NCBI GenBank assembly: GCA_023954855.1
Contig: JAGSGY010000013.1
Location: forward strand, 34,902-98,901
Origin: Pseudomonadota bacterium
GTDB lineage: Bacteria > Myxococcota_A > UBA796 > GCA-2862545
Length of the DNA: 64,000 bases
Direction of reading: 5' to 3'
Below are positions 5,438 through 36,086 of the stretch, in pieces. Positions within the stretch are counted from its first letter, which is position 1; each line of letters starts with the position of its first letter. Below the pieces are notes generated by a model that saw only the letters and a program-made list of their open reading frames with translations, was not told the origin of the DNA and made no database searches. The position numbers and the translations under genes were made by a program.

Positions 5438-7219
5438 TTGGAACCCTGTCCCTTCTGCAACACACCTGTCGATGGGGACTTGATCCGCTTCGGTGGAACT
5501 TGTCCCAGCTGCTTCGGAGAGATCCCAGGCGAAGAGGCCGCTACGGATCCCGGCGAGGCCGTGAAGGCCGCGCAGGTCCAGCAAGACGAAGCACGTGTCC
5601 GACGTCGCATGATGGTCCCGGCCATCATGGGCGCGCTCGCGTTGCTCGCGCTGGGTTCTGCCGCATGCCTGATCGGCTTGCGAACCGCCAGCACCCAGAC
5701 CGAACTCGCGATCGATGCCGCTCTTGCGGATGTCGAGGACGAGGTCACGGTGGATCCCGATGCGCCGAAGAAGGGCGAAGGCAGGCTTGTCGTCGAGCCT
5801 GTCGTGGTCGACGAGGCCACCGGCCGCGTGGGCTACGTCGATCCTCGTACCGGCGAGGAAGTCTCTGTCGATGAAGCCACGGGCACCGTGACGCTCATCG
5901 ACGAAGTCGCTGGCGTGAAGCGGGTCATCAACGCGGCGACCGGTGAGGCCGAGGTTTACGATCTCGAGACCGGTGAGCGGGCGATGGTCGACCAAACCAC
6001 CGGCATGGCCGTCGTGCGCGACGAAGAAGCGGGAACCGCACGCGTCGTCGACCCTCGCACTGGAATCACCACCGTCGTCGACGAAGAGACGGGTGCTCCG
6101 ACACACGTCATCAACCCTGTCACGGGTGAGACACAGGGTGTCGACGAGGGAACGGGCTTCCTGGTGGTCGAAGATCCAAACACGGGCACCAAATCGGTGG
6201 TGAACACAGCGACGGGAATCGTCGCGGACGTCGACTCCCGCACGGGTGTTGCTGAGCTGGTGAACCCCGAAGATGGCAGCGCGCTGCTGTTTGACCCCGA
6301 GACCGAAGAAGTCGCGACGGTCGACCCCACCACTGGCGTCGCGTCGTTTGTGGATGAAGAGGCTGGCACGACGACTGTCGTCGATCCCCGGTCCGGAGCG
6401 ACGGCCGAGGTCGATGGCAGCACGGGCTCGGCGACGCTCGTCAACCCGCGTACCGGCCAGACCACGATCGTGAACCCCGAAGAGGGCACGGTCGCCAAGA
6501 TCGACCCCCTCACGGGAACGGCCATCACGGTGGCTCCGACCGTCGAGGTGAGCGACGAGGATCTCGAGGGGATCGCGGCACTGCCCGACGGACGCCTGCC
6601 GTCTGACGAAGAGCTTGCCGGCCTGGGCGAAGATCTCGATGATCTTCCTGAAGGGCGCATTCGCTCAAAGTCTGAGCTGACCGAGAACTTCCAGATTGGT
6701 GAGCTCGGAACCGCGCCAGACGCGGGCCAAGGCACCACCTCGGGCACCCGCGTCGTCGAGGGCGGCGCGTCCGTGGGCTCTGGACTCTCATCCGGTCCTC
6801 GCGAGGCGACGGTCAAGGTCGATGCTTCGACGGACGTCACGACGACCAAGGCCTCGCAGTACACCGTGCTGGGCCTCACGCCCGACGTGTCGATCTCGCG
6901 GCGCGAGCAGCTCGGCATCCGTCTCGAGGACGACCAGGCCATCATCGCGATGATCAAGCGCGTCATGGACACCGAGATTCCGCGACTTCGGGTTTGCTAC
7001 GAGCGCCGGCTCAAGCAGGCGCCGGAGCTCAAGGGACGCTGGGCCCTCAGATTCACGGTGCGTGCCGACGGCTACACCGAGGCGGCGACCGTGAACGGAC
7101 TCGACAGTCGTGACGACCAGCTCGAGGCCTGCGTGGTCGAGAAGTTGAAGAGCTGGCAGTTCCAGAAGATCCGTGAAGACCAGCCGATCAAGAAGACCGT
7201 CACCTTCCGTCCGAGCTAG
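5438..7219 (+). CDS. AgmX/PglI-like protein with zinc ribbon, TM and decapeptide repeats
   Basis: 593 residues from a TTG with GGAGAG four bases upstream. Order of parts: a CPFC...CPSC zinc ribbon (residues 4-25), a charged linker, one transmembrane helix (57-81), a run of about 24 degenerate ten-residue repeats built on V-D-x-x-T-G-x-x-x-V (124-365), a Gly/Ser-rich linker, and a terminal domain (490-593) with CYERRLKQAPELKG and VNGLDSRDDQLEACV, typical of the AgmX/PglI C-terminal domain of myxobacteria, a TonB-C-like fold. The topology suggests a cytoplasmic zinc ribbon and a long periplasmic repeat rod ending in a small domain. In Myxococcus, proteins with this end are tied to gliding and envelope complexes; the role here is inferred. 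Confidence 0.75.
   Translation: MEPCPFCNTPVDGDLIRFGGTCPSCFGEIPGEEAATDPGEAVKAAQVQQDEARVRRRMMVPAIMGALALLALGSAACLIGLRTASTQTELAIDAALADVEDEVTVDPDAPKKGEGRLVVEPVVVDEATGRVGYVDPRTGEEVSVDEATGTVTLIDEVAGVKRVINAATGEAEVYDLETGERAMVDQTTGMAVVRDEEAGTARVVDPRTGITTVVDEETGAPTHVINPVTGETQGVDEGTGFLVVEDPNTGTKSVVNTATGIVADVDSRTGVAELVNPEDGSALLFDPETEEVATVDPTTGVASFVDEEAGTTTVVDPRSGATAEVDGSTGSATLVNPRTGQTTIVNPEEGTVAKIDPLTGTAITVAPTVEVSDEDLEGIAALPDGRLPSDEELAGLGEDLDDLPEGRIRSKSELTENFQIGELGTAPDAGQGTTSGTRVVEGGASVGSGLSSGPREATVKVDASTDVTTTKASQYTVLGLTPDVSISRREQLGIRLEDDQAIIAMIKRVMDTEIPRLRVCYERRLKQAPELKGRWALRFTVRADGYTEAATVNGLDSRDDQLEACVVEKLKSWQFQKIREDQPIKKTVTFRPS
5809..6530 (+). repeat. About 24 tandem ten-codon repeats inside the AgmX-like gene
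   Basis: The coding stretch encodes repeated V-D-[EP]-x-T-G-x-x-x-[VL] units about 30 bases long, with occasional N for D, A-G for T-G and one 11-residue unit. At the DNA level the copies are diverged (GTCGAC, ACGGG and GAAGAG recur), so this is an old protein repeat and not a fresh microsatellite. The unit length and alternating hydrophobic pattern suggest a beta-solenoid or extended beta-rod. Confidence 0.85.
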
Positions 7220-8144: not shown

Positions 8145-8213
8145 GACGTCATCGTAACGCGGGTGCGCGATGCCCTCGTGGGATCGGGATACCATGTGGC
8201 CGCTGGAGGCTTC

Positions 8214-9773
8214 GTGAATCGTTTCTGCCACTTCCTCTCGACTGGAATGGTCGCGCTCGCTGCATGCGGAGAGCCGACGAGTGAGGTTGCGAGCCCTGGA
8301 GCCACAGCCCCCGCCGGTGAAGCAGCGCTGACGGTGGTCTACACGGCCCATGGTGAGGGTGAGATTGAGCCCTGTGGTTGACCGCGTCATCCTCTGGGCG
8401 GTCTGTCCAGGCGAAGTCAGTGGGTCGAGGACGCGCGCTCGTTGGGTGCAGTCGTCTATGTGAACGCCGGGAACGCGCTAGCCCCGCCTTCTAGGAACAA
8501 CCATGGGTCGATCGGGGATGCAGAGCGCATCAAGGCCGAGCTCATCCTCCAGACAGCCGCAGCGGACCAGATCGATGCGATGGCTCTCGGCGAAGAAGAT
8601 TGGCGTCTAGGTCTGGACTGGCTTCGGCAGCGGTCCGCAGAGCTTGCATTGCCCGTGCTGGCTGCCAATCTCGAGTGTGATGGCGTCGCGCCGTTCCCGG
8701 CGAGCCGAGTCGTCGAGCGTGCTGGGCTGAAGGTGGGCATTGTCGGTGTGACGAGTGGACAGGTTCCCGGCTGCATCGTTTCCGACCCCATCGCCGCCGC
8801 CGGTCGCGTAGCGGATGGCCTCAGGGCCGAGGTCGACGTGGTGGTGGGCTTACTGCCCCTCCGGCTGACCCGGATTGAGGAAGGAGCGGATCTCGGGATC
8901 GACCTCGCGGTGAGCGGGGGTGAGCCCGTGAAGTACGAAGACCTGGTTCCGTGGCGGGGTGGGTACAAGGCGGCCTCGGGGGGCCAGACCAAGCATCTGG
9001 GTGCCGTCGGTCTCTACCCGAGTCCAGGCGCGACGGGTTGGGCCCCCGATCCATCACTGGTCTTGCTTCGTGAGATCGAGAAGACGCAGGCGCTTCGTGA
9101 TCGCGTTGCCGATCGGCTTGAGAAGGCCAACGACGAAGGGCGGCGTAGCCGCTACGGCGAGATGATCGCCAAGTACGACGCCGATCAAGAGGAACGCCGG
9201 GCGAAAGTCGCGGCGTTGGCGGGAGACAGCGGCGTGGGCAATCGGCTCGTCAACAAGCTGGTCCCTCTCGATGAGGCGATCTCGGATCACCCAGAGACTC
9301 TGGAGCGCGTGACTTCAGCGAAGGCTCGGGTCACTGCGGCTGCCACCGGGGGAGCGGACGTCACCGAGCTGGTCAACGTCCCACACCTCATCCCGGGAGA
9401 CGGACCGTTTGTGGGAGCCGACGCCTGCCAGTCGTGTCACACCGAGCAGCACACCCAGTGGCGTCGGACCTCTCATGCCAGAGCGTACAAGGGCCTTGTG
9501 GACGTCGATAGGGCCATGGACCCGGAGTGCTACTCCTGCCACGTCACCGGGGCGGACTCCGAGCACGGACCGCGCGAGCCGATGCTGGTCGGTCCGTTCC
9601 GCGATGTGCAGTGCGAAGCCTGTCATGGGCCCGGGCGTGCCCACATTGCAGCACCGGCAACGGTACGAATGGTGAAGAGCCCAGATGAATCTCTGTGCAT
9701 CACCTGCCATGATGGTGAGCGAGACATGGGGCGCTTCGAGCTGGAGCGCTACCTCAAGAGGGTGTCGCATTGA
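8214..9773 (+). CDS. Candidate selenoprotein: lipoprotein with degenerate 5'-nucleotidase-like domain and tetraheme cytochrome
   Basis: About 519 residues, reading TGA at 8379-8381 as selenocysteine (residue 56). The GTG at 8214 has GGAGG four bases upstream. The N-terminus is a lipoprotein signal ending LAAC (Cys18). Next comes VVYTAHGEGEIEPCG-U-PRHPLGGLSRR, which matches the PCGC..GG..RR motif I recall from metallophosphatase-like lipoproteins, with U in place of the second Cys. The frame is continuous across the TGA. The nucleotidase-like domain has lost the usual G-N-H-[ED] (here GEEDW), so it is probably not a hydrolase. A coiled region follows, then four c-type heme motifs: CQSCH (9426), CYSCH (9529), CEACH (9612) and CITCH (9695). 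It overlaps the next gene by TTGA. The alternative is a nonsense mutation or base error, with a shorter product from ATG 8442, but that would lack any export signal. Confidence 0.8.
8379..8413 (+). promoter_or_regulatory. Putative bacterial SECIS element directly after in-frame UGA
   Basis: Counting the U of UGA as 1, CUGGGC (16-21) pairs with GUCCAG (27-32), including one G-U, and closes the five-base loop GGUCU. GGUCUG occupies positions 22-27 and a U is at 17, the same positions as the SelB-recognised GGUCUG and U17 of the E. coli fdhF SECIS. In my fold U17 pairs with A31 and is not bulged. GGU CUG also encodes the conserved Gly-Leu, so part of the match could be protein-driven. Confidence 0.75.
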
Positions 9774-10645
9774 GCTTTCCGACGCTGATCTCTGGCGTGT
9801 TCGCCGGACACTGGACCTCCCCAGAGAGGACCACCGGCTGCACGGCGTTTCTTTTTCCAGGCGGCGCGACCGCGGGTGTGTGCGTCCCCGGAAGCGCGAC
9901 GGGTACGCGAGAGATGGGGGCTCTCGAGTCCGGTCATCTTGCGCCTGAGATTCACGGGCTCTGCCTGTCAGGTGGCTCCGCGTTTGGGTTGGCGGCCGCA
10001 GACGGCGTCATGCGTACGCTCGCCGAGCAGGGCATCGGCTTCGACACGTCCAATGGGCCAGTTCCGATCGTGCCGGCGGCGATTCTCTACGACCTCTCCA
10101 CCGGGACGGTGCGTCCCGACGCGGCATCGGGCCGGGCAGCTGCCGAGAGCGCTTCATCGCGGCCCTTGGCCGAAGGGCGGGTCGGCGCTGGCGCCGGAGC
10201 CAAGGTCGGTAGCGTGACGGGCTCCGCGGTCCCCGGTGGCTTTGGCTGCTCGACCTATGCCGTAGGGGAGTGGACTGTAGGCGCCGCCGTCGCTGTGAAC
10301 GCTCTGGGCAGCGTTCGCGACCCCGAGACGGGCGCGTGGGTCGCTGGAGGGCCGCCCACGGACTTGCGTCGACCGGGCAGTCCACGAGAGCAGACGACAC
10401 TTGCCGTCGTCGTGACGGATGCGCCCCTCGACAAGGGTGCGGCCACGGTGCTCGCACGCATGGCAAGTGCCGGGCTTGCCCGCACGCTTTACCCCGCGTA
10501 CACCGCATTTGATGGTGACGTGGTGTTCGCGGTCTCACCTGCCAAGGGCCCCTGTGTCGACCCGATGGATCTGACCCGGCTCGGCCATGCGGCGGCGATC
10601 GTCGTGGCCCGGGCGATTGTGCGAGCGGTCAGTCGAGCATCGTGA
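9770..10645 (+). CDS. P1-family (DmpA/NylC-like) N-terminal nucleophile peptidase
   Basis: 291 residues from a TTG that overlaps the upstream stop (TTGA), so it is translationally coupled to the candidate selenoprotein. LSGGSAFGLAAADGVMRTL, GRVGAGAGAKVGS and WTVGAAVAVNALG are hallmarks of the P1/S58 family. These are Ntn hydrolases that self-cleave at an internal Ser/Thr/Cys to expose the nucleophile and act as L-aminopeptidases, D-Ala esterases or oligoamide hydrolases. The likely cleavage area is near GCSTYAVG or downstream; I cannot fix the nucleophile by eye. It is cytoplasmic, with no signal peptide. Substrate unknown. Confidence 0.8.
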   Translation: MSFPTLISGVFAGHWTSPERTTGCTAFLFPGGATAGVCVPGSATGTREMGALESGHLAPEIHGLCLSGGSAFGLAAADGVMRTLAEQGIGFDTSNGPVPIVPAAILYDLSTGTVRPDAASGRAAAESASSRPLAEGRVGAGAGAKVGSVTGSAVPGGFGCSTYAVGEWTVGAAVAVNALGSVRDPETGAWVAGGPPTDLRRPGSPREQTTLAVVVTDAPLDKGAATVLARMASAGLARTLYPAYTAFDGDVVFAVSPAKGPCVDPMDLTRLGHAAAIVVARAIVRAVSRAS

Positions 10646-34643: not shown

Positions 34644-36086
34644 GTGGCGCTGAATCTCTCACTTCAGTACAAGCAGACTCAGAGTCTGGTCATCACTCCG
34701 AAGTTGCGGCAGGCGATCAAGCTCCTGCAGTACTCGCACATCGAGATGGTGTCCCACGTTGAGGAGCAGCTGCTCGAGAACCCGACGCTCGAGGCGGTTC
34801 CCGACACCGAGTACGGAGACAACACGGCGCAGGCCGAGCTTCGCGAGTCCGCGGGTGCGGCTGACCGGGACCGGCTTGAGCAGCAGAACGGCGCTGAGAC
34901 GAGCATCGACTGGGAGAAGTTCCTAGCCCACATGTCGGACCGCGGTCCGGGGCTCGCGAGCGGGTCGCTGGGCGGCACGATTCACGACGACCTTCCGCCG
35001 ATCGAGACCAACCTCACCTATGGCGAGTCACTGGCGGACCACCTCATCTTCCAGCTCCAGATGATGCGGATGAGTGATGAGGAGCATCGGGCCGCCGAGA
35101 CCATCGCCCACAACCTCGATGCACGTGGCTACCTCGCTTGCGCGCTCGAGGACATCGCGACGGACGCCGACGTCGACATCGAGATTGCGCTCAACGCCTT
35201 GGAGCTCATTCAGAGCCTAGACCCGTACGGATGTGGGGCCAGAGGCCTCTCGGAGTGTCTCGTGCTCCAGGCTCGGGTCGTGTACCCCGAGGACGATACG
35301 TTTGAGCGCATCCTCACCGACCATCTCCGCAATCTCGAGCACAAGAACTACGCTGCGATTGGCAAGGCACTCGGTCTAGATCTCGAAGACGTCATCGAGT
35401 ACCACAAGATGATTCAGGAGCTGGAACCGCACCCTGGGCGGCCGTTCAGCAGCGAAGAACCGCGCTACATCACGCCGGACCTCTACGTGCGACAGCTCGA
35501 AGGGGAGTGGGTGGTCCTGCTCAACGAAGAGGGCATGCCCGAGCTCAAGATCAGCCGCTACTACCAGAAGGTGATGGAGAGCGCGAAGAAAGAGGACAAG
35601 GAGTACTTGATCGACAAGCTCAAGGGCGCCGAGTTCCTCATCAAGTCGATCCACAAACGCCGGCGCACGATTCGGCGGGTGATGGAGAGCATCTTGAAGT
35701 TCCAAGCCGACTTCTTCGAAGTGGGCGTGCAGGGACTTCGCCCCTTGATTCTTCAGGACGTCGCCGACGACATCGATGTGCACATGAGCACGGTGTCTCG
35801 GGCGACGACCAACAAGTACGTCCATACGCCGCACGGCATCTTGGACCTCAAGTTCTTCTTCACGTCGGGTGTCCGTCAGGAGACGGGCGGCGACATGGCT
35901 GCCGAGGCGATCAAGCAGCGTATCCGCTCGATGATTGCCGAGGAAAACCCGAAGAAACCGCTGTCCGATCAGGCGCTTGCCAAAGCGCTTGCGGCAGACG
36001 GCGTCCGTGTCGCTCGTCGCACGGTCGCGAAGTACCGCGAGGCGCTCGGCATCCTGTCGAGCTCCAAGCGTAAGCAGGTGTTCTAG
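34644..36086 (+). CDS. rpoN: RNA polymerase sigma-54 factor
   Basis: 480 residues from the GTG at 34644, chosen because LNLSLQYKQTQSLVITPKLRQAIKLLQYS then matches the activator-interacting region I of the family; an ATG at 34611 would add a poor extension. The core-binding region is in the middle, LILQDVADDIDVHMSTVSRATTNKY holds the helix-turn-helix, and the RpoN box ARRTVAKYREALGI is at the C-terminus. It recognises -24/-12 promoters and needs AAA+ activators; none is encoded here. hpf lies 23 bases downstream, as is common for rpoN. Confidence 0.97.
   Translation: MALNLSLQYKQTQSLVITPKLRQAIKLLQYSHIEMVSHVEEQLLENPTLEAVPDTEYGDNTAQAELRESAGAADRDRLEQQNGAETSIDWEKFLAHMSDRGPGLASGSLGGTIHDDLPPIETNLTYGESLADHLIFQLQMMRMSDEEHRAAETIAHNLDARGYLACALEDIATDADVDIEIALNALELIQSLDPYGCGARGLSECLVLQARVVYPEDDTFERILTDHLRNLEHKNYAAIGKALGLDLEDVIEYHKMIQELEPHPGRPFSSEEPRYITPDLYVRQLEGEWVVLLNEEGMPELKISRYYQKVMESAKKEDKEYLIDKLKGAEFLIKSIHKRRRTIRRVMESILKFQADFFEVGVQGLRPLILQDVADDIDVHMSTVSRATTNKYVHTPHGILDLKFFFTSGVRQETGGDMAAEAIKQRIRSMIAEENPKKPLSDQALAKALAADGVRVARRTVAKYREALGILSSSKRKQVF

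Follow-up and report, generated by a model that had tools for sequence, protein, structure and literature searches.

A predicted UshA-like selenoprotein joined to four heme motifs in a member of the Myxococcota_A

The closest described relatives of the protein analyzed here are the UshA-like selenoproteins with a Cys-x-Sec motif. According to the parts of the respective papers available to us, 76 sequences were tabulated as 'COG0737, UshA-like, CxU' (Table 2 in Zhang and Gladyshev 2008, PMC2398784), and the UshA-like selenoprotein was listed again in 2022 (PMC9312934) and, as NF041198, in 2026 (PMC13188914). The last of these sources also lists the motif CxxU for NF049981, the NCBIfam entry 'UshA-like (seleno)protein family 2'. 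Here, we describe a gene located in a 64,000 nt stretch of DNA (hereafter, the window) from Pseudomonadota bacterium (GTDB lineage Bacteria; Myxococcota_A; UBA796; GCA-2862545; contig JAGSGY010000013.1 of assembly GCA_023954855.1). An initial annotation had proposed that this gene encodes a new selenoprotein. Its novelty was not borne out, given that UshA-like CxU selenoproteins are listed in the available parts of all three papers and that the NCBIfam family NF041198 matches the protein. We consider it probable that the gene encodes a predicted selenoprotein, likely an exported lipoprotein, in which a phosphatase-like domain, with its metal site predicted to be lost, would have a redox role and be connected to four c-type hemes.

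The in-frame UGA codon and its conservation

The frame 8214–9773 (+) contains a single internal TGA, at 8379–8381 (codon 56), and is otherwise open to its terminal TGA. Re-reading the frame confirmed the earlier description of it as running from a GTG with GGAGG and a lipoprotein signal to four CxxCH motifs, broken by the TGA only. The residues around codon 56 read E-P-C-G-(TGA)-P-R-H-P-L-G-G-L-S-R-R. Judged from sequence comparisons, this TGA is almost certainly a selenocysteine (Sec) codon, because the genome encodes tRNA-Sec, selA, selB and selD, the TGA recurs in 32 sequences, homologues carry Cys at the site, and a downstream Gly codon is strongly biased towards GGT.

The genome (6.1 Mb, 97% complete, with the window on contig C9) proved to encode the complete machinery presupposed by the selenocysteine assignment of the initial annotation, namely, selA, selB, selD and tRNA-Sec(UCA). 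The three protein genes each score above their curated cut-offs, with a selB open reading frame (ORF) of 629 residues, and one tRNA-Sec match exceeds the Rfam cut-off (61.9 bits). This cut-off was also passed by 5 of the 14 control genomes, so that the anticodon matters; ARAGORN identified the tRNA as tRNA-SeC with the anticodon TCA.

The position of the TGA is shared by 32 distinct sequences, that is, the window and 31 sequences from related genomes, counted after removal of duplicates and of two stretches with N, with some loci sharing genomes. Because of this conservation, the TGA is not explained by a sequencing error. Indeed, an error or a decayed gene is extremely improbable: nothing beyond the stop itself speaks for it, whereas the same TGA is carried by genomes of the genus, family, order and class of the window, and no other stop occurs within the 519 codons.

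The NF041198 profile was run against 377 genomes from the phylum and the 14 control genomes (E 0.001). Matches were obtained in 371 of the 377 genomes, 22 of them above the cut-off, and in 9 of the 14 controls, none above the cut-off; because the controls match as well, weak matches mean little. The 150 best matches comprise 50 from the class of the window (19 above the cut-off and 31 below), each with one internal TGA, and 100 from other classes, all free of stops. At the 30 best loci, the DNA reads TGA in 22 cases and TGC or TGT in 8, always behind PCG. In a set of 34 longer loci, TGA is present in all 20 from the class, and PCGC in 12 of the 14 from other classes, the site being unreadable in the other two (L080 and L082). 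A search with our alignment of the family (A1) yielded a site-spanning match with an internal TGA in 58 of the 71 class genomes, where the place of the TGA within the match was read for those loci whose DNA was read; the remaining 13 lack such a match, and in two of these (G299 and G307) the match starts behind the site. The TGA gene and selB (above the cut-off in 59 of the 71 genomes) occur together in 51 class genomes, the TGA gene alone in 7, selB alone in 8 and neither in 5, a co-occurrence that is only modest (Fisher p 0.036).

A protein database search recovered 181 homologues. Among the 120 of these that were listed, all 17 with a coverage of at least 92% carry PCGC, and many of the others start behind the Cys/Sec site, as gene callers do after a stop; the listed homologues include P0003 (437 aa, 'hypothetical protein EP330_29665', Deltaproteobacteria bacterium), which we take to belong to the G068 contig, where the TGA was read in the DNA. 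When the window protein was compared with database contigs, three Halieaceae loci matched, in query residues 397–478 only, that is, in the heme part. The proposal that the TGA replaces a Cys of the homologues held up in the alignment: the homologues without the TGA in which the site was read carry Cys there.

Alternatively, the UGA could be a true stop, leaving a lipoprotein fragment of 55 residues and, as an ORF of its own, the 443 residues that start at TTG 8442 and indeed stand in the protein database (P0002). This is very improbable, given that 32 distinct sequences share the TGA at this codon, and given the Cys in the other homologues, the open frame on both sides of the TGA, the Sec machinery in the genome and the codon bias in the hairpin loop described below. 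Furthermore, the short ORF has, as judged by eye, no export signal, which is needed for the attachment of c-type hemes.

The putative SECIS hairpin

A candidate selenocysteine insertion sequence (SECIS) lies just downstream of the TGA. With the U of UGA counted as +1, CTGGGC at 16–21 and GTCCAG at 27–32 form six pairs around the loop GGTCT at 22–26, with U at +17. Re-counting of the positions thus reproduced the six-pair hairpin with the loop GGUCU reported in the initial annotation, in a register that we take to be that of the E. coli fdhF SECIS. Of the 32 distinct sequences, 31 retain the loop at +22 to +26, and the remaining one has GGACT there. Gly at +22 is encoded by GGT in 31 of the 32, compared with 129 of 957 Gly codons (13.5%) further down in 21 of the TGA genes. 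The combination of GGTCT and a stem of three or more pairs is present in 31 of the 32 sequences but in only 4.1% of synonymous recodings. These comparisons indicate clear selection on the loop codons, the exact stem being less clear. An Rfam scan of the window at the gathering score gave no match. The 64 kb window contains two sites with a TGA followed by 18 bases, GGTCT and a stem of three or more pairs; the second, at 35030 (−), is antisense to a 491-aa ORF and looks like a chance occurrence.

Several observations weigh against the assignment of this hairpin, or of the UGA itself. The fold energy of the window hairpin is ordinary (z −0.47, with 32% of synonymous recodings as low), and the mean energy of the 32-sequence set was matched by 22 of 500 recoded sets. 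Over the six fixed pairs, 78.1% of the cells pair, compared with 75.2% in shuffles, and a two-sided change is seen at one pair only, in one sequence. RNAalifold favors pairs other than these six; one reason, by eye, is a one-base shift of the pairing register in sequences that have C or T at +18 and +27. The U at +17 occurs in only 23 of the 32 sequences. Taken alone, hairpin energy and covariation thus support a SECIS weakly. In addition, among the 58 genomes of the class that carry the TGA gene, 7, which are possibly incomplete, have no selB above the cut-off, and many class genomes also hold open paralogues (A1 matches only). Finally, the 47 rows of the alignment were picked largely by the PCG motif, so that the invariance of PCG is partly by construction.

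Domain architecture and relation to known families

The features of the gene are compiled in Table 1. As the initial annotation had stated, a metallophosphatase-like domain and four heme motifs are combined in this lipoprotein-type protein, an architecture supported by domain matches and by the four CxxCH motifs near the protein end (residues 405–409, 439–443, 467–471 and 495–499). The C-terminal part matches PF13435 (cytochrome c554) with 49.4 bits against a gathering score of 20.8 (E 9e-13).

Table 1. Coordinates of the selenoprotein gene and its parts in the window.
Feature	Position	Strand	Remarks
Whole reading frame, GTG to TGA	8214..9773	+	519 residues, residue 56 read as selenocysteine
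GGAGG ribosome-binding site	8205..8209	+	4 bases upstream of GTG; from sequence
Predicted lipoprotein signal peptide, lipobox LAAC, Cys18	8214..8267	+	judged by eye
Cys54-Gly55-Sec56 (C-G-U)	8373..8381	+	UGA 8379-8381; aligned with Cys-Gly-Cys of homologues
Predicted SECIS hairpin	8394..8410	+	6 pairs; loop GGUCU at 8400-8404
5'-nucleotidase/SoxB-like domain, residues 37-378	8322..9347	+	contains helical segment 280-337
Four CxxCH heme motifs, cytochrome c554-like	9426-9440, 9528-9542, 9612-9626, 9696-9710	+	
Shorter ORF, 443 aa, TTG start	8442..9773	+	protein database entry P0002, replacing the whole protein

NF041198 ('UshA-like (seleno)protein', UshA_like_PCGU) matches residues 31–504 (E 4e-72), a range that takes in the heme part. 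With the published family the protein shares the UshA-like (5'-nucleotidase) domain and a predicted Cys-x-Sec motif, in which UGA encodes the second of the two residues and homologues carry Cys instead. As for the four heme motifs, the main text of the 2008 paper (PMC2398784), in the part available to us, contains no words starting with 'heme' or 'cytochrome'. NF049981 shares the UshA-like domain, with a weak match to residues 39–214 (E 4e-7), but the score of 29.7 bits is below the cut-off of 140. The protein differs from the 5'-nucleotidases UshA, CD73, 2z1a and YfkN in having none of the seven ligand positions and in the added heme motifs, and from the thiosulfohydrolase SoxB in the loss of the ligand positions; SoxB is not among the NCBIfam matches of the window protein itself. 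The C-terminal heme domain resembles cytochrome c554 (1bvb, presumably from Nitrosomonas; match with the window sequence alone, E 1e-7), but here it is fused behind an UshA-like domain with a predicted Sec. A text search found no paper that names selenoproteins, selenocysteine and Myxococcota together. Elsewhere in the same genome, a 459-aa frame (G000:C132:44137-44925) gives two matches to the heme part of NF041198.

In the alignment, the window protein keeps none of the seven metal-ligand positions (46, 48, 87, 127, 215, 236 and 238, in motifs I–V), the identity of which we assume. Altogether, 24 of the 47 rows keep no ligand position, and 15 keep 2 or 3 of the seven. In the alignment with 2z1a, Cys-Gly-Sec falls in the loop that directly follows ligand motif I, and in one Cys locus (L042) TDVHG still precedes YLEPCGC. 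All three of these observations, the partly kept ligands, the position of the loop and the L042 sequence, would fit a selenoprotein in which Cys54 and Sec56 bind metal instead of the lost ligands, so that the protein would act as an altered metallohydrolase or would bind a metal or metalloid, with the hemes serving another step. We regard this, the main alternative, as unlikely, although a changed metal site remains a candidate because some relatives retain up to 3 ligand positions. The complete absence of ligands from the window protein and from about half of the rows argues against it, as do the four fused hemes, which are of no obvious gain to hydrolases, and the at least four Sec/Cys changes on the tree (see below), which are usual for redox sites. 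A second Cys pair, at residues 155 and 187 of the window protein, has both Cys in 23 of the 47 rows and never just one (A1 columns); from this pattern, the pair is likely to form a disulfide.

Phylogeny, gene neighborhood and possible function

A tree was built from the 47 rows with the site columns left out; it gives no direction of Sec/Cys change. One side of a branch with support 100/100 comprises 28 rows, 19 with Sec and 9 with Cys, including the window, and at least 4 changes between Sec and Cys are required on the tree. The nearest sequences by path are that of a genus mate (Sec), followed by P0006 (Cys) and L058 (Sec). The occurrence of Cys rows among the Sec rows readily suggests that Sec was lost several times. 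Five genomes with above-cut-off matches (L066–L070) fall on the same 28-row side and share the downstream neighbors of the window gene.

These neighbors, TsaD and the next gene, are common to 16 of the 31 loci, all of the class of the window. An upstream operon encoding an ATP-binding cassette (ABC) transporter ATPase, an ABC-2 permease, ABC_transp_aux and a DUF4340 protein is present at 9 or 10 of the 20 class loci, for example directly upstream of the Sec gene in L064 (8935–13580, −), and is absent from the window. Subsets of the Cys members have valyl-tRNA synthetase nearby, or RimM, TrmD and L19. In the window, a Peptidase_S58 gene follows at 9770–10645 (+), and because its TTG start overlaps the stop codon of the selenoprotein gene, the two genes may be translated together. 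Upstream, at 5438–7219 (+), a 593-residue protein without a Pfam match is, as judged by eye, composed mostly of degenerate VVDPRTG..TVVDEETG-type repeats.

Three further points count against the family assignment and the redox interpretation. First, the NF041198 score of 243 bits is below the curated cut-off of 275; because of this, the window protein is not called an NF041198 equivalog. It is a member of the wider published UshA-like CxU family, in which it is placed because it groups with L066–L070 and shares TsaD and the next gene with them. Second, as noted above, ligand positions survive in some relatives. Third, the annotated conserved neighbors are mostly housekeeping genes and point to no substrate. 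The lack of a pathway among the neighbors would suit a purely structural or electron-storage role, for example that of a heme-protein scaffold with a stable selenosulfide, but C-G-C/U is kept while the ligand positions drift, and we consider such a role quite improbable.

Under the favored redox interpretation, SelB and Sec-tRNA would read the UGA at the SECIS hairpin, and the lipoprotein would be exported and lipidated, with the four hemes attached. Cys54 and Sec56 would then form a redox couple, a selenenylsulfide, where the metal site was lost, and electrons might pass between this couple and the hemes, reducing or oxidizing a small periplasmic substrate. The most novel form of this proposal, which we put forward tentatively and as somewhat less than probable, is that a metal-less phosphatase fold evolved into a selenenylsulfide oxidoreductase of the cell envelope that is wired to hemes. 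Cys54-Sec56, located at the former active site, would exchange electrons with the four fused hemes, perhaps with the help of Cys155/187.

The class of the window carries the UshA-like Sec gene widely, and the matched database entries of the family are cut short because the UGA was read as a stop. Selenoprotein lists have included the family since 2008, yet the published accounts, in the parts available to us, give no tested function. The lost ligands beside the kept Cys-Gly-Sec, together with the fused heme motifs, turn the guess of an 'UshA-like' hydrolase into a testable redox idea.
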